NCBI GenBank assembly: GCA_014377525.1
Contig: JACMPL010000027.1
Span: 1 to 33,053, forward strand
Origin: Candidatus Saccharimonadota bacterium
GTDB taxonomy: Bacteria; Patescibacteriota; Saccharimonadia; Saccharimonadales; UBA4665
Length of the DNA: 33,053 nt
Reading direction: 5' to 3'
The notes under the pieces are model-generated. The model saw only the letters and a program-made list of their open reading frames with translations, ran no database searches and was not told where the DNA came from. Positions 4,287-27,625 of this stretch are shown one piece after another. Within the stretch, counting starts at the first letter, position 1, and every line of letters begins with the position of its first letter. The translations under genes were made by a program, and so were the position numbers.

Positions 4287-4420
4287 TTGCACTGCACAGC
4301 ATCTGGCAGGTCACTCGGAGAGTTTAGCTGCAGTACCCGAAGACCTTAGCTCAGAGCCCGCAGCTCCACACAAAATTATTATGAACATTATTGAGCCTGA
4401 GAGGGCCGGAAAGGTTAACG

Positions 4421-6208
4421 ATGGCAGATGTTGAACAACCAGTCGTGAATTCCACAATCGAAATTGAAGATATGATCACCGTCGGTACCTTGGCCGAGCG
4501 CCTGTCGATTCCGGTGACTCGCCTCATCGGTGAACTTATGAAGAACGGAATTATGGCGACCGTCAACGAGCGGATCGATTTCGATACCGCCGAAATCATC
4601 GTCGAAGAGCTCAAACTTGGCATCGGCATAACTCGCCGCAAGGCCGAAGAAGAAACTACTGCCCGCGTCAAGGCAGTTGCCAGCGCCACCGCCGCTTCGC
4701 GGCCACCAGTTGTTGCCGTTATGGGGCATGTCGACCACGGAAAAACTAGCTTACTGGACGCTATCCGCAGCGCCAATGTCGTTAAGGGCGAAGCCGGCGG
4801 CATCACCCAGCATATTTCGGCCTACCAAATTATCCATAACGACCGAAGCATCACGTTCCTCGATACTCCCGGCCACGAAGCCTTCGCCGCAATCCGCGAA
4901 CACGGCGCGCTCCTGACTGACATCGTCGTTATAGTCGTCGCCGCCGATGATGGCATTAAACCTCAAACCATCGAAGCAATCCGATTTGCCCGCAAAGCTG
5001 GTGTCAAAATTATCGTTGCTGCCAACAAAATAGACAAAGAAGGCGCTGATGTGAACCGCCTCAAGAGCCAATTAGGCGAATACGACCTAATTTGGGACGG
5101 CTGGAAGGGTGGAGACACGCCCGTCCAAGAAGTTTCCGCCAAAACCAAGCAGGGAATTCCCGAACTCCTGGATATGATCCTGCTCGTCACTGACGTTGAG
5201 GATCTTAAAGCCGATACCGATATTCCTGCTCGTGGTCTGATCATCGAGGCTCACGTCGAACAGGGCCGCGGCCCGGTTGCCCACGCCCTTGTCGAAGCTG
5301 GTACGCTTAAGCCTGGTGATTTTATCGTCGCCGGCAGCAGCTACGCCAAAATCCGAAATCTGGAAACCACCGATGGCAAACCACTCAAAATTGCTACACC
5401 GTCCATGCCAGTAGCTATTACCGGTTTCAAGACCTTACCAGAATTCGGTGACGAGTTCAGTTACGTCGCCAATGAAAAACTGGCCCGTGCTCAAACCGAA
5501 GCCGCTGCCAACGGTAAACAGGCCAAGGGTGCTCGAGGCGGTGTCGGCTCCAGTGAGCTTATCCGGATGATCAACCGCAATAACGAAGTTCAAGAGCTCA
5601 ACATCATTATTAAAGCCGATGTTCAAGGCTCACTGACCTCAGTTATCGACAGCCTTAAAGCGCTTGACACCGCCGAGGTCGCCGTGCGAATCGTCAGCTC
5701 TGGCATCGGTGCCGTCGGCGAAAACGACCTGCACCTTGCCCAAACCAGTAAGGCGATCGTCTACGGTTTTAACGTCGATATTCCAACCAGCAGTAAGCAA
5801 CAAGCCTCCCGCGACAAGGTCGTCGTTAGAATGTACAAAGTCATATACGAACTCATAGATGACGTCAAAAGTGGATTGAGTGATTTACTCAGGCCTGAGA
5901 TAAAAGAAACCGAAGTCGGCCGGCTGGTCGTCCGTGGTATATTCAACACTACTAAGTCTGCCGTTATCTGTGGCGGTGAAGTCACCAAAGGCAAGTTAGT
6001 ATCGCCAGCGCTAGCCCGTGTCCTACGCGGCAAAGAAGAGCTCGGCGAAGTCGAGATTACTGGTCTTAAGCGTGGTCCAGCCGAGGCCAAAGAAGTATTC
6101 GAAGGCGAAATGTGTGGACTTAGTTTCAGTACGTCGCACCGAATCGATCTCCAAGACGGCGATCACATCGAACTCTTCACCCGCGAAGCCATTCAGCGCA
6201 CCCTGTAA
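4421..6208 (+). CDS. infB: Translation initiation factor IF-2 (short form)
   Basis: A 595-residue GTPase that delivers formyl-Met-tRNA to the 30S subunit. A short N-terminal IF2-N domain (about residues 20-66) is followed directly by the G domain: GHVDHGKT 102-109, GGITQH 126-131, DTPGHE 148-153, NKID 202-205. The beta-barrel domain II, the IF-2 domain 3 and the C-terminal fMet-tRNA-binding barrel follow. It lacks the long variable N-terminus of E. coli IF-2 (890 aa). An in-frame TTG at 4391 is possible, but ATG 4421 has GGAAAGG six bases upstream. fmt and def in the same window complete the formyl-Met cycle. Confidence 0.95.
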
Positions 6209-7210: not shown

Positions 7211-9709
7211 ATGAATAATCCATCTGATGCGTTTCCGTTAGTAGGTCCAACAGAAAGGGTGAATCAATCTATCCCAACTGCTGAATCAGTTATTGACTGG
7301 GATCGTTATTCTGGACTTGATGCTGCGCTGCAAGCCGACAATGGGTTGATAGCTACGGCCAAATCAGCCGAAAATGGTCGGCGAAGTGCGGCTCAACAAT
7401 TGCTTGAAAGTATATCTGACGGTTTTGACGACAGTACAATTTTTAAGAATGTTACTGAGGCCCAAGAGTTCATGCAGTCTAAAATACAAGACGCTGCTAA
7501 CGAGCAGGGTGGATTACCAGAATTTCAAGGCTTCAGCGGCGCCTTGCCCTGCAAAATAGGTCGATCTACGAAACTCGTGATGTTCGCATATGGTTGTAGT
7601 GCGGTTGCAAAGTCTAATGGCGGCGAAAAACCCCTAACTGTTTTAGAGCATAAAGAAGTCTACAAACCGATTACGATAGGCAAAGACGGCCTTGCCGTCC
7701 AAGCCGACGATAAGAAACCTGATGTACGCGTGCAAGTTGTATCACTCAAGGCAGGCGAACGGTATGTTACCAGCTCAACTAACGACATACTGGTTTCTTT
7801 GCATGGAGCCTTTGGCGCGCACCAGTTCCAGAACAAGGCGCTACTGCTTCCCCGCTTGCAAGACGTCGTTGACACACTAAAGCATAATAAATCTGTGACG
7901 AACGAACCCCTAGATGGTTCTGTTGCAGTGACTGAGTTCTCTCCAGTTCCATCGGCTGGATATCGGGAGCAAGCAAGCCGATTGGGCAGACAGGCAGTGA
8001 GCAGCGTTGTCGATGGCGCGCTTAAGATTACACAACGAACACCTAGCAAAAAGCCGAGTGAGCCAACATCACGACCAACAGCGGAGTCTGAACTAGTCGA
8101 AATAAATGATACTGACATGCCTGTTTATGAATCGGCTGTGACATCTATTGCAGGGGTAACTGAACGCGGTGCTTCAGTTAAACCGGCCGAAGCGGTCGAG
8201 CCAATTGTGGTTGAGCCCATCGTTGTAGCGACTGAACAAAAGCCGGTAAGCAGTGTCTTATCGCTTGGTGTTGGGCCTGTCCCGGACCGTAATCGTAGAG
8301 ATTCCGAACCGGCCAGTCGATACGTTGACCTGGTAGATAGACTTAAAGCTAAAGGAACCGTAAGAGCTGCTCGGGCGGCAAAAGCAGGTTCCACCGAAGA
8401 CGGGAATATTATTAGTTTGGGTGTAAATGCTTTGACTGGTTTAGGCAATGATGCCGACGCTGACCTGCGTCTATTAACGGATGGGGAATTACTTGATGCA
8501 TCCGAAAAGGCATTAGAAGCTTACACGAAGTTAGTGGTACGTAAGCGTACAAAAGCAATTATGATTTTATCTAAAGAATATGAAGATGCCAAAGCTAATT
8601 ATCAGGACCTTGCCAATGAAGAATTGCGTCGGCTTGGCGATAATCCTGAAAGTATCAAACAATATCTGTTAGATGAGGCAATATTTGTTCAGGATGGAAT
8701 CAAAAAGGCTATCAATGCCCGAAAATCTGGTCGGTTCAACACGGCTTGGGCAAACTGGAACAGCCAGAAATTCCTGCACCGCTACACAGCCTATAAGGCA
8801 ATGGTTGTTGCCGGAGCTGGTTTTGTGCCAGGAGTTATTGCTGGAGCTGTAACTGCAGCAACAGTATCGGCAGTTGCTGGCCCGGTTGTCGGCGCAATTG
8901 CTGGTTTTGGAGTAGGGAGTAGAGTTGCAAAGGGTATGATCGGAGCCAAAATTCGTAACACTGGCAAGTCGCTGAGTGTTGGCGATGTCCAGAGTGACAA
9001 GCACCTAAATAAGCACATTGGGAAAAATGTAGAGCAGCTGGGACACATAAAACTTATAGAGAAGGCAGCTCTGATAGAGAACGTAGCTCTGAAAAAGTTA
9101 TCAATTGAGCTACTTACTGACAATATTGAGCTGGCAACCAAAAATCAGCAACGACGTAACTTGCGACGGATGGTTGGATCGACGGCAATCGGTGCAGTGT
9201 TGGGTACAGTCGGCGCCGAAGCAGGTGCTACTTGGATAGCGCCTCATGTTTCGGGATGGATCGCTGATCATTTTGGTGGTGGTTCTAATGCAAGATCTGC
9301 GCCATCAGTCGGTTCGGTAAGCTCTACGGTAGCGCCGTCACCGAGTGCGACACCTAACACGTTGCCAGTAGTGCCGTCTGCGCCACCTGCTCCCGGAGTG
9401 TTAGCTCCCAGTACTCTGCCGAGCATTGCAATACCGAGCGAAGTAACGATTGCACCTGGTAGCGGTATCGACCAGATGATTTATGATATCGGTCAAAATG
9501 CGAATCCACGGTTTAGTGGGGCAGACGCTCACCGAGCGGGTCTGGCTTTACTGGAAAAGACCAATGGTAACCTGTTTGACGGCAGTAGTAGTATCGCCAC
9601 TTATGGCAACGGTATGATAAACCAGCCTGGGACGGGTCATTTCTCGGCAGCAGTGCAGGCGATGATCGCCGAGCAGATACAGCGCCAACTACTTGAAGAT
9701 ACAAATTAA
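7211..9709 (+). CDS. Unknown 832-aa protein with two hydrophobic segments
   Basis: No confident family. Residues about 100-240 faintly resemble a PP2C-type phosphatase core. They contain VQVVSLKAGERYVTSSTNDI where PP2C proteins have a pattern like L-x-GDR-LLCSDG, but the metal-binding aspartates are not recognisable, so any such fold would be inactive. The middle (about 240-520) is polar and helical. Residues 531-570 are a long Gly/Ala/Val-rich hydrophobic stretch and 654-684 a second one, typical of glycine-zipper membrane segments. A Pro/Ser-rich linker (about 697-745) leads to a compact C-terminal domain of about 85 residues. This suggests a membrane-associated protein with an exported or cytosolic C-terminal domain. 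The start is ATG 7211, predicted leaderless. Confidence 0.75.
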   Translation: MNNPSDAFPLVGPTERVNQSIPTAESVIDWDRYSGLDAALQADNGLIATAKSAENGRRSAAQQLLESISDGFDDSTIFKNVTEAQEFMQSKIQDAANEQGGLPEFQGFSGALPCKIGRSTKLVMFAYGCSAVAKSNGGEKPLTVLEHKEVYKPITIGKDGLAVQADDKKPDVRVQVVSLKAGERYVTSSTNDILVSLHGAFGAHQFQNKALLLPRLQDVVDTLKHNKSVTNEPLDGSVAVTEFSPVPSAGYREQASRLGRQAVSSVVDGALKITQRTPSKKPSEPTSRPTAESELVEINDTDMPVYESAVTSIAGVTERGASVKPAEAVEPIVVEPIVVATEQKPVSSVLSLGVGPVPDRNRRDSEPASRYVDLVDRLKAKGTVRAARAAKAGSTEDGNIISLGVNALTGLGNDADADLRLLTDGELLDASEKALEAYTKLVVRKRTKAIMILSKEYEDAKANYQDLANEELRRLGDNPESIKQYLLDEAIFVQDGIKKAINARKSGRFNTAWANWNSQKFLHRYTAYKAMVVAGAGFVPGVIAGAVTAATVSAVAGPVVGAIAGFGVGSRVAKGMIGAKIRNTGKSLSVGDVQSDKHLNKHIGKNVEQLGHIKLIEKAALIENVALKKLSIELLTDNIELATKNQQRRNLRRMVGSTAIGAVLGTVGAEAGATWIAPHVSGWIADHFGGGSNARSAPSVGSVSSTVAPSPSATPNTLPVVPSAPPAPGVLAPSTLPSIAIPSEVTIAPGSGIDQMIYDIGQNANPRFSGADAHRAGLALLEKTNGNLFDGSSSIATYGNGMINQPGTGHFSAAVQAMIAEQIQRQLLEDTN

Positions 9710-24151: not shown

Positions 24152-24418
24152 ATGAAACTAGTTATCCTTTACCGCCCATTATCGGAACACGGAAGTAAAA
24201 CTGAAGAGTTTATGCGTGAATATCGACGCATCTATCCAGAAAGTAAAATCGAAGTTATTGAGATTGATACCCGCGAGGGTATGGCAATGGCCAGTCTATA
24301 TGACGTCGTGCAATATCCGGCGATTTTAGCGCTTCGCACCGATGGTTCAGTCGCAGACATTTGGCAGGGCGATAATTTCCCACTCATGCAAGAAGTGCTG
24401 GCCACGACTCGGACCTAG
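24152..24418 (+). CDS. Thioredoxin-fold protein without any cysteine
   Basis: An 88-residue protein with the small thioredoxin/glutaredoxin layout. The first strand is KLVILYRPLS, followed by helix 1, a second strand KIEVIEIDT (33-41), and a cis-proline motif VVQYPAILAL (P56). A final strand and a helix complete it. The active-site CxxC position reads SEHG (about 11-14), and there is no cysteine in the whole protein. It therefore cannot act as a disulfide reductase. It follows nrdJ after a terminator, where a reductase electron donor might be expected, but it has its own leaderless-type promoter. A structural or binding role is inferred. Start ATG 24152. Confidence 0.75.
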   Translation: MKLVILYRPLSEHGSKTEEFMREYRRIYPESKIEVIEIDTREGMAMASLYDVVQYPAILALRTDGSVADIWQGDNFPLMQEVLATTRT

Positions 24419-24429
24419 TAGCAGGGCAT

Positions 24430-24468
24430 TTGATGATCGTTGTTTGGGTGGTATAATAGAGATACAAT
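24430..24468 (+). promoter_or_regulatory. Overlapping promoters for the ileS T-box transcript
   Basis: Two candidates. TTGATG (24430-24435) with TATAAT (24452-24457), spacer 16, starts near 24464. TTGTTT (24440-24445) with TACAAT (24463-24468), spacer 17, starts near 24475. Either gives a leader of about 210-220 bases before ileS. Confidence 0.65.
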
Positions 24469-24474
24469 TTAGAG

Positions 24475-24656
24475 AATCCGTTTGAGTGGTTATCCGCCAC
24501 GAGGAGTAGAAAGAACCGACTTAGTCACAGTAGACTCTACCGGCTGCGCGTCCGTTATCGCATAATCAAGTGTCGAAAGAAATATCTCTTTTGAAATCTG
24601 GATGGTACCATCTCCGCTCGCGCGGGGATTCCAGTTCAACAGAGATATTTTTTATT
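24475..24656 (+). promoter_or_regulatory. T-box riboswitch leader of ileS
   Basis: T-box leaders sense uncharged tRNA. The antiterminator is clear: CTGGA (24598-24602), a 7-base bulge TGGTACC, ATCTCCGC pairing with GCGGGGAT across a TCGC loop, then TCCAG. TGGT in the bulge can pair with a tRNA ACCA end, which fits tRNA-Ile. A candidate isoleucine specifier ATC (24491-24493) sits in the loop of GTGG...CCAC, but this placement is tentative. AGTA (24505-24508) and a GAAAGAACC stretch resemble stem I elements. An outer stem AAATATCTCT (24580-24589) with AGAGATATTT (24641-24650), followed by T6, looks like a terminator that encloses the antiterminator. Confidence 0.8.
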
Positions 24657-24685
24657 ACCCAAAAATAACTATAGAGGAGCTCGTT

Positions 24686-27625
24686 ATGAAATTTGAGAAA
24701 AACAGTCGCCGCCGCGCTAAAGATTATGAAGCAGATTTAGTTGCGCAGTGGAAGACTAATAAAACGTTTGAAAAATCGGTGGCGGCTCGGCCAGCCGACA
24801 ACAGCTATGTTTTTTACGATGGCCCACCGTTCATCACGGGTGTGCCACATACGGGCACGCTGCTATCAAGTTTTACGAAAGATGTCGTGCCGCGCTACTG
24901 GACCATGAAAGGCAAACGCGTCGAGCGTCGCTGGGGCTGGGATTGTCACGGCCTGCCAGCCGAAGTTTTTACTGAAAAAAAATTAGGTATTCACGATAAG
25001 CGCGATATCGGTACTAAAATAAGCCTCGAAGATTACATCAACACCTGCCATGCTAATATGGTGCAGACAGGTGACTTATGGGAAAGTACCATCGACCGGA
25101 TTGGTCGCTGGGTTGATTTTGAAGGTGCCTACAAAACTATGGATAAAGATTACATGGAGTCAGTTTGGTGGGCATTTAAGGAATTATATGATAAGCAGAA
25201 AATTTATGAAGGCGAGAAGGTGTTGTTGTACTGTGTACGGGATGCTACGCCGATCAGCAAGTCCGAGGTGGCCATGGACAACTCATACCAGGATGTCACC
25301 GATCCGTCAGTCTATGTAAAATTCAAGTTAGTTGATGAGAAAAAATATTTGTTAGCTTGGACGACGACGCCCTGGACACTACCGGCCAATACTGCAGTCG
25401 CCGTCAACAAAGCTGAGAAATATATTGAAGTTCAGGTCGGAGACGATGTTTTAATCATTGCCGAAGCATTGTTGTCAAAAGCCCTACAAGATGAGAAACA
25501 CAACGTTGTCGAGCATACAATACTACGTACCTTTAACGGAGAAGAACTGGTTGGAAAGAGTTACGAACCGTTGTTCGAGAACCGTGGCGCCAAAGCTCAC
25601 AAAATTTGGCATGCTGACTACGTAACCATGGAAGATGGCAGTGGCATCGTCCACTTAGCACCCGCTTATGGGGAGGAAGACTACGCGTTGTCAAAAGAAT
25701 ACGGTTTCCCGTTTGTAATAGATATTGACGACAACGGCTTTTATAACCAGGGTGAGTGGAAGGGGCAATACGTTTGGGATTCTAACAAGCTGATTGCCAA
25801 AGAATTACACGCCCGCGGGGTAGTTTGGCGTATTGATTACATCACTCACAGTTATCCGCACTGCCACCGCTGCGGCACAAAGCTGATGTACCGGGCTCAC
25901 CCGAGTTGGTTCATGGACATTGCTGGCCAGCGCACCGATATGATCGATCATAACGCCGATATAAATTGGTTTCCAGGGCATCTCAAGAACGGTCGCTTCA
26001 AAAAAACTATCGAATCAGCACCGGACTGGAATTTGAGCCGTGACCGGTTTTGGGCAACGGCGATGCCGGTTTGGAAAGGAACCGATGCTAGCGGTAAGAC
26101 GCTCGTCAAGGTTATTGGCAGCTATGCGGAGCTTAAAGAATTATCCGGCCTGGAATTAGAAGATTACCACCGTCCTTGGATTGATGACGTAACCTTTACA
26201 ATAGACTCAGTCGAATACCAGAGAATAGATAAAGTTTTGGACTGTTGGTTCGAGAGTGGCAGCATGCCGTTTGCTCAGTTCCACTACCCGTTCGAGAACG
26301 TCGAAAAGTTCGAAGCTAATTTCCCCGGTGATTTTATCGTCGAGTATGTCGGCCAGGTGCGGGCATGGTTCTATTATGTACACGCCATTTCGACAGGGCT
26401 GTTTGGTAAGAATGCCTTCCGTAATGTCATCACAACTGGTGTTGTGGCTGGCAATGACGGCCGTAAGATGAGTAAGAGTCTCGGTAACTTCACCGATCCG
26501 AATGTTTTGATGGACGAGTATAGCGCCGATTCCTTACGCTTCCTTTTGATGTCTTCGCCACTGATGAACGGAGAAGACTATAGCTTGAAAGATAAAGATG
26601 TCGCCGATGTTGCCCGCAAACTCAGTATGGTCTGGAACATGTACGATTTCTTTACGCTGTACGCCGATGTCGATGGGTGGGAGTGGGATGGTTCATTGGG
26701 TGACCCCAGTGCTACGCTTAGCAACCCGCTGGACACCTGGATCGTCTCGCGGGTACACCAACTTAATGTTGAAGTTGACGAGGCTATGCAACGTTATGAC
26801 CTGCCAAGTGCGTTAAAACCAGTCCTGCCGCTGCTCGATGATGCTAGTAACTGGTACGTCCGCCGCAGCCGTAAGCGTTTCTGGAAAAGCGATAGCGACA
26901 CCGATAAAAATGATGCCTACCGGACGCTCCATTATGTGCTGACGCAGTTGAGTTTGATAATGGCGCCGTTCACACCATTTCTAGCCGAAGAGCTATACCA
27001 GAAACTGACCGGTGGCGAAAGCGTCCATTTACTCGATTGGCCGGAAGTCGGCGCTGTTAACGCTAAGGTAGTTTCCGACATGGCCTTTGCTCGGGAAGTC
27101 ATCAATGAGGGCTTATCGCAGCGCGCCAAAGCTAAGGTCAAGGCTCGCCAGCCGTTACAATCGGTTAGTGTTTATGATGCACGAGGCCAGCTGGATAGTG
27201 AGTTGCAATCAGTTGTGGCCGAAGAATTGAACGTCAAACAAGTATTAGTTCGTCAGAATCCGAAATTTGATCCCGAAGCTTCATTTGTTGATGCCTGGCT
27301 GGAACAGGTCGACAAGTGGCCTGCGACAGTCATCGACTTTAGAATGAGTGACGAACTGAAACGCGAGGGCTACGCCCGAGAAATTATTCGTAATGTCCAA
27401 AGTGCTCGAAAGCAAGCTGGTTTGGAAGTTGATGACCACATCGAGCTGCAACTCGGTAGCGACCACGCTGATATTTTGTCAGTATTCACAACACCTGAAT
27501 TAGCTGATTTGATCCAGCAAGAGACGCTGGCTAACTCACTCAACAAGGGTGAACTACAAGATGCATACGCTATTGTTGTAAAAATTGAATCCGCTGAGCT
27601 GGGCATCAAGCTTAAAAAAGCTTAG
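24686..27625 (+). CDS. ileS: Isoleucyl-tRNA synthetase
   Basis: A 979-residue class I synthetase charging tRNA-Ile. The HIGH-type motif is PHTGTL at about 54-59. A large CP1 editing domain follows, with TTTPWTLPANTAVAV and later the HRCGTKLMYR zinc-like segment. The KMSKS loop is at 594-598. The anticodon-binding domain and a long C-terminal domain complete it. The length and WGWDCHGLPAE sequence match the eukaryote-like type 2 IleS, often less sensitive to mupirocin (family knowledge). The start is ATG 24686 behind AGAGGAG. The in-frame upstream TGG/ATG region belongs to the T-box leader. Transcription is controlled by that leader. Confidence 0.96.
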   Translation: MKFEKNSRRRAKDYEADLVAQWKTNKTFEKSVAARPADNSYVFYDGPPFITGVPHTGTLLSSFTKDVVPRYWTMKGKRVERRWGWDCHGLPAEVFTEKKLGIHDKRDIGTKISLEDYINTCHANMVQTGDLWESTIDRIGRWVDFEGAYKTMDKDYMESVWWAFKELYDKQKIYEGEKVLLYCVRDATPISKSEVAMDNSYQDVTDPSVYVKFKLVDEKKYLLAWTTTPWTLPANTAVAVNKAEKYIEVQVGDDVLIIAEALLSKALQDEKHNVVEHTILRTFNGEELVGKSYEPLFENRGAKAHKIWHADYVTMEDGSGIVHLAPAYGEEDYALSKEYGFPFVIDIDDNGFYNQGEWKGQYVWDSNKLIAKELHARGVVWRIDYITHSYPHCHRCGTKLMYRAHPSWFMDIAGQRTDMIDHNADINWFPGHLKNGRFKKTIESAPDWNLSRDRFWATAMPVWKGTDASGKTLVKVIGSYAELKELSGLELEDYHRPWIDDVTFTIDSVEYQRIDKVLDCWFESGSMPFAQFHYPFENVEKFEANFPGDFIVEYVGQVRAWFYYVHAISTGLFGKNAFRNVITTGVVAGNDGRKMSKSLGNFTDPNVLMDEYSADSLRFLLMSSPLMNGEDYSLKDKDVADVARKLSMVWNMYDFFTLYADVDGWEWDGSLGDPSATLSNPLDTWIVSRVHQLNVEVDEAMQRYDLPSALKPVLPLLDDASNWYVRRSRKRFWKSDSDTDKNDAYRTLHYVLTQLSLIMAPFTPFLAEELYQKLTGGESVHLLDWPEVGAVNAKVVSDMAFAREVINEGLSQRAKAKVKARQPLQSVSVYDARGQLDSELQSVVAEELNVKQVLVRQNPKFDPEASFVDAWLEQVDKWPATVIDFRMSDELKREGYAREIIRNVQSARKQAGLEVDDHIELQLGSDHADILSVFTTPELADLIQQETLANSLNKGELQDAYAIVVKIESAELGIKLKKA

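Follow-up and report, generated by a model that had tools for sequence, protein, structure and literature searches.

A predicted T-box leader upstream of ileS in Saccharibacteria may be switched by capture of Stem III around a folded antiterminator

RESULTS

A leader with an ultrashort Stem I precedes ileS

The window (the whole 33,053-nt stretch that was analyzed) is one contig of a draft "Candidatus Saccharibacteria" genome. It carries ileS, whose product contains the Pfam domains tRNA-synt_1, Anticodon_1, and DUF5915, and a leader whose features are collected in Table 1. Upstream of this leader lies a promoter-like site, TTGATG-16-TGGTATAAT, with 10 of 12 consensus matches and a TG before the second hexamer; shuffled sequences average 0.7 such sites. 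If the site is used, transcription of the leader would start near 24464. A ACAATTTGG-like word, found at 24464-24472 in the window, is conserved just past the -10 box in many ileS leaders. A small open reading frame upstream of the leader (24152-24418) appears thioredoxin-like by eye, with no Pfam match at an E value of 0.001, and an 832-amino-acid open reading frame (7211-9709) downstream of the IF-2 gene (4391-6208) likewise had no Pfam match at this threshold.

TABLE 1 Features of the ileS locus in the window
Feature	Coordinates	Strand	Basis or remarks
Sigma-70-like promoter-like site, TTGATG-16-(TGG)TATAAT	24430..24457	+	Suggestive only
Stem I, ultrashort	24477..24505	+	UCC/GGA base; apical helix 24486-24489/24497-24500
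Specifier codon AUC (Ile)	24492..24494	+	In 7-nt Stem I apical loop, 24490-24496
Stem II, S-turn strands AAGAA (24511-24515) and AGUAGA (24529-24534)	24506..24540	+	Covarying helix, invariant UAGA
Stem IIA/B pseudoknot region with CCGUUAU (24552-24558)	24541..24565	+	CCCGUNA conserved in relatives; pairing putative
Purine string AAGUG (RRRxG) before Stem III	24568..24572	+	AAG invariant in relatives
Stem III, UCGAAAGA (24573-24580)/UCUUUUGA (24587-24594)	24573..24594	+	Covariation
AA after Stem III	24595-24596	+	Invariant in relatives
Outer (terminator) stem, 5' arm	24577..24595	+	Pairing strands 24577-24589 and 24591-24595
Antiterminator core	24598..24634	+	Near-perfect covarying helices
A1 helix	24598-24602/24630-24634	+	Covariation
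Bulge UGGUACC	24603-24609	+	Invariant
A2 helix	24610-24617/24622-24629	+	Covariation
Outer stem, 3' arm with U6 (24648-24653)	24635..24653	+	Predicted intrinsic terminator; strands 24635-24639 and 24641-24653
Shine-Dalgarno sequence (SD) AGAGGAG of ileS	24673..24679	+	Read from sequence
ileS, isoleucyl-tRNA synthetase	24686..27625	+	Pfam PF00133, PF08264, PF19302; relatives

When the leader was compared with Rfam at the gathering threshold, no family matched. At a relaxed threshold, the T-box model RF00230 aligned end to end with positions 24472-24636 at 36.1 bits (E = 1.3e-6; gathering score, 93), and a low score is expected given that the model expects a long Stem I and the leader lacks most of it. 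The whole leader folds 2.3 standard deviations below shuffled sequences, and the RNAalifold consensus of an alignment of 42 Saccharibacteria ileS leaders contains compensatory changes in 24 of its 27 predicted pairs. This consensus consists of the apical helix of Stem I, Stem II with its S-turn, Stem III, and the antiterminator helices A1 and A2.

The apical helix of Stem I (GUGG/CCAC in the window) covaries, and the base of this stem and a GA/GA kink-turn-like step (24484-24485 and 24501-24502) were read from the sequence. The AUC specifier encodes Ile, matching the regulated synthetase; it is invariant in the 42-leader alignment, and a stem-loop of the same form is found in 76 of 81 leaders. 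Many relatives (L034, L021, L116, and others) carry an extra hairpin on the bulge side of the kink-turn; at this site, 5' of the apical helix, the window carries GUUU alone.

Further downstream, the arrangement AAGUG-Stem III-AA is nearly invariant across relatives, with covariation in Stem III, and corresponds to the purine motif RRRxG-StemIII-AA described previously (PMC7583486). The UGGUACC bulge between A1 and A2 is invariant as well. Since the tRNA loci examined in the draft genome of the window yielded no tRNA-Ile, we used a one-contig relative (G008), whose tRNA-Ile(GAU) gene encodes a 3' ACCA, the exact partner of UGGU.

Judged by these sequence features, the leader is a T-box of the short-Stem-I class, with the class III architecture described in PMC10482949. 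An earlier note made from the sequence of the window had read the leader as a T-box of ileS whose Stem I is short, and both points hold. All of the strands that it described lie where it placed them, the AUC specifier sits in the terminal loop of the short stem, and the specifier, S-turn, purine string, and bulge are invariant in relatives.

The antiterminator core is nested within an 18-bp outer stem

An intact A1/A2 core lies within an 18-bp outer stem that ends in U6, and the full nested hairpin comprises 31 predicted pairs with a folding energy of -34.3 kcal/mol. The outer-stem hairpin and the T run behind it are conserved among relatives, and about 70 of 78 Saccharibacteria ileS leaders (72, or 69 with a stricter classifier) share the nested arrangement, which the earlier note had pointed out for the window. 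In part, the U run is itself paired to the A-rich outer 5' arm, a point that weighs against the switching model given below. A simple terminator scan with a loop limit of 8 nt found nothing at the leader; the nested hairpin is beyond this limit.

The perfect palindrome GATGGTACCATC, for which a role by self-pairing had also been considered, was rejected as a functional element: only 4 of 81 leaders contain it, and as a hairpin it contributes about -2.5 kcal/mol. The palindrome is incidental.

Stem III and the outer stem are predicted to be mutually exclusive

Within the outer 5' arm lie the end of the Stem III 5' strand, the Stem III loop (AAUAUC, 24581-24586), and the entire Stem III 3' strand. 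The strand that competes for this arm is the 5' strand of Stem III, which the outer 3' arm mimics and beyond which it extends into the Stem III loop. This likeness is visible by eye in the relative L126, where Stem III is CUAAAAAG-AAUC-UCUUUUUAG and the 3' arm is CUAAAAAGGGAUUUUUU. Stem III alone folds with -6.8 kcal/mol. The competing upstream pairing that the earlier note had suspected thus exists and is Stem III. That note had held that a conserved strand competing with AAATATCTCT would mark a normal switch; the strand was found, but the switch is not of the normal type, since the exclusive pair is Stem III and the terminator rather than A1/A2 and the terminator.

A single alignment of 49 leaders served to score the two structures. 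Stem III plus the core had 92.4% of cells paired and a covariation score of 0.564 (0.248 in shuffles), and the outer stem plus the core had 87.9% of cells paired and a score of 0.590 (0.254 in shuffles); in each case, 0 of 500 shuffles reached the observed value. Sliding the outer-stem partner by 1 to 3 columns lowered the covariation score to 0.09 to 0.19. Since these shuffles leave relatedness uncontrolled and the scored structures derive from one member of the alignment, we added an arm-swap test on 34 nonredundant leaders (<70% alike). Native arm pairs averaged -16.2 kcal/mol, compared with -8.9 kcal/mol for swapped arms, and the window's own 3' arm outperformed all 33 foreign arms in pairing with its 5' arm.

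When the 3' arm was added in silico to the segment containing Stem III and the core, 65 of 76 leaders lost 100% of their Stem III pairs and kept 99% of their core pairs, and in the window all 13 of 13 core pairs were kept in the full-length OFF fold. Among 16 previously unused leaders of the class, 13 were nested, 2 were canonical, and 1 was of another kind. In these predicted folds, Stem III and the terminator exclude each other and A1/A2 survives in both states. The earlier view that a single hairpin is common to both states therefore gives way to a two-state switch between Stem III and the terminator. In bare RNA, the ON fold is less stable than the OFF fold by about 10 kcal/mol, so that the tRNA complex would have to win in time, a need that has been stated for other T-boxes too (PMC7583486).

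The expression platform appears to act on transcription

For the class III T-boxes known to date, control at the level of translation is usual but not universal, and the ileS T-boxes of Nocardia farcinica and Mycobacterium tuberculosis control translation by sequestration of the SD (PMC10482949). These leaders share with the window a short Stem I, an apical Ile specifier, a Stem II S-turn, the Stem III purine string, a UGGN bulge, and a position before ileS. A translational T-box of the actinobacterial kind would use the free pyrimidine strand AUCUCUUUU (24583-24591) to pair with the SD AGAGGAG, with the outer stem serving as antisequestrator. We consider this reading unlikely, although most known short-Stem-I T-boxes are translational and AUCUCUUUU is, by inspection, complementary to the SD when G-U pairs are allowed. 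The pyrimidine strand pairs with its own SD at -6.4, hardly better than the -5.7 obtained with the SDs of other species, whereas the terminator arms coevolve strongly. Moreover, the distance from the core to the start codon varies widely among leaders, and the T run is conserved: behind the core, the longest T run has a mean length of 5.2, compared with 3.0 in shuffles. Given the conserved T run, the near-equal pairing with foreign SDs, and the variable distance, termination is favored. SD sequestration by the pyrimidine strand was accordingly rejected for lack of coevolution with the SD, and the platform looks transcriptional, in agreement with the output that the earlier note had proposed. 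Unlike the class III ileS T-boxes above, the window has a U-run hairpin that pairs with Stem III and shows no sign of SD coevolution. These data suggest that short-Stem-I T-boxes can act on transcription.

One relative (leader L050, genome G011) has an ileS T-box with neither outer stem nor T run. By eye, there seems to be complementarity between its A2 5' strand, CUCCAUUAAU, and the SD region, AUUAAUAGGAG, which would resemble a translational T-box.

A model for switching by Stem III capture

In the standard account of T-boxes, tRNA chooses between mutually exclusive antiterminator and terminator hairpins, and Stem III has only recently been recognized as essential for tRNA sensing. The arrangement in the window, with the antiterminator present in both predicted states and the choice made at Stem III, departs from this account. 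We propose, with a probability of roughly three in four, that the leader is a transcriptional T-box that is ON with uncharged tRNA-Ile and is switched by Stem III capture. As the leader is synthesized, Stem III would form first and the A1/A2 core next. The anticodon of uncharged tRNA-Ile would then pair with the AUC of the Stem I loop, and the ACCA end of the tRNA with UGGU in the bulge. The purines flanking Stem III (AAGUG...AA) would latch the tRNA complex and keep Stem III closed, allowing read-through; uncharged tRNA would in this way favor Stem III. With charged tRNA or no tRNA, the latch would fail, and the 3' arm UUCAACAGAGAUAUUU would capture the Stem III 3' strand and loop, with invasion presumably beginning at the A1 side. 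The captured strand would complete the 18-bp terminator around the intact A1/A2 core, and the U run at its end would terminate transcription.

According to published structures, binding of the tRNA 3' end requires Stem III together with its purines (PMC7583486). A terminator that opens Stem III and takes up the strand lying between the two purine elements should therefore exclude the tRNA complex as the canonical terminator does. The A1/A2 bulge is nevertheless present in the predicted OFF hairpin and may retain some tRNA contact. A switch of inverse sign, in which uncharged tRNA held in the bulge of the nested hairpin stabilizes the terminator and starvation lowers ileS expression, would make use of the bulge and both core helices, which are unchanged in that hairpin. 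We regard it as very improbable: a covarying Stem III with invariant flanking purines would be of no use in such a state, published work detected no appreciable tRNA binding without Stem III (PMC7583486), and the sign would be opposite to that of every T-box studied.

It is similarly hard to believe that the hairpin and U run act in mRNA processing or decay rather than in transcription. A long, stable hairpin does lie just upstream of ileS, and the simple terminator scan came out empty, with its loop limit of 8 nt, but nearly all relatives carry a T run behind the arm, even L044, whose hairpin is canonical. Nothing was found for the role in RNA decay that the earlier note had raised.

Comparison with canonical T-boxes

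Ordinary transcriptional T-boxes build the 5' strand of their terminator from the 3' strands of A1 and A2 (PMC7583486, PMC10907184), a feature that is absent from the window. As controls, we used a small set of four ordinary T-boxes from viral contigs, retrieved by the motif AGGGTGG(A/T)ACCGCG, and all 4 of 4 rearranged A1/A2 when the terminator arm was added. The B. subtilis tyrS and glyQS T-boxes (class I/II) have A1, the bulge, A2, Stem III, and a U-run terminator hairpin; the window has the same parts, its terminator being a predicted one. They differ in having a long Stem I with a tRNA-elbow motif, which the window lacks, whereas the window keeps A1/A2 folded and uses a Stem III strand for its predicted terminator.

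Canonical behavior also occurs among the relatives. Upon addition of the 3' arm, L044, L015, and L041 lost the core and kept Stem III. In L044, the leader of a congener (genome G001), the A1/A2 3' strand pairs downstream to form a canonical terminator hairpin of -22.8 kcal/mol with T7. The predicted folds thus indicate that the expression platform of the ileS T-box differs within one genus. That the window itself is an ordinary T-box of this type, which is found in L044, L015, L041, and L151, and was merely misread as nested is scarcely credible, because it has no downstream strand that pairs with the A1/A2 3' strands and its full-length fold retains 13 of 13 core pairs.

The conservation of the nested design across Saccharibacteria suggests a new working mode for an old type of switch, and these leaders provide a natural setting in which to ask whether Stem III with its purine latch suffices to decide the outcome.

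T-boxes and their nested variants across Patescibacteria

Patescibacteria are host-dependent bacteria with few known regulators. We searched 380 Patescibacteria genomes with an aptamer model (R2) and found T-boxes in 144 of them (33 of 37 inside the Saccharibacteria class and 111 of 343 outside). The genome of the window has a single match, the ileS leader. The genes downstream of the matches are aminoacyl-tRNA synthetase genes, including those for IleRS, ValRS, LeuRS, and AspRS (assigned by eye from translations), such that T-boxes precede synthetase genes in roughly one in three of the Patescibacteria sampled. A second model (R1), built on the discriminator and outer stem, matched 47 of 287 genomes, but these include some canonical leaders and do not represent a clean count. 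In the literature searched, in which subscription papers were poorly covered, we found neither a mention of T-boxes for Patescibacteria or Saccharibacteria nor a description of T-box switching by Stem III capture.

The T-boxes of other Patescibacteria match the same R2 model and lie before synthetase genes, and several are nested like the window. Unlike the window, they have mixed platforms: Stem III-less, canonical, or with a separate downstream hairpin. Outside Saccharibacteria, a classifier based on duplex energy had a 25% background at -9 kcal/mol, and its "nested" labels there were not counted; nesting was judged instead from leaders whose AAG string itself serves as the 5' arm. In this recurring Stem III-less kind, AAGNNNN directly before A1 pairs with the arm before the T run, and the partners are exchanged between lineages (TCCC/GGGA, CACC/GGTG, AGCC/GGCT, CGCA/TGCG, and TCCA/TGGA). 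It was found outside the class in L162, L163, L176, L183, L185, L188, L202, and L204 and within the ileS set in L012 and L049.

Common to the nested variants is a terminator that takes the latch and spares A1/A2. We give even odds to the broader proposal that a Patescibacteria-wide T-box variant exists in which the terminator captures the latch, the antiterminator stays folded, the latch rather than A1/A2 decides, and the platform is exchanged with the canonical one within a genus. The latch of such a variant may be Stem III or, in leaders without it, the AAG purine string by itself.

Two further arrangements were seen. In L037 (genome G042), inspection by eye suggests that the arm preceding the T run pairs with a CCCC that lies 5' of Stem III and leaves this stem intact, and its terminator would thus enclose both Stem III and the antiterminator. 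In L165, L180, L196, L198, and L208, a terminator-like hairpin lies entirely downstream of A1 and overlaps neither A1/A2 nor Stem III.
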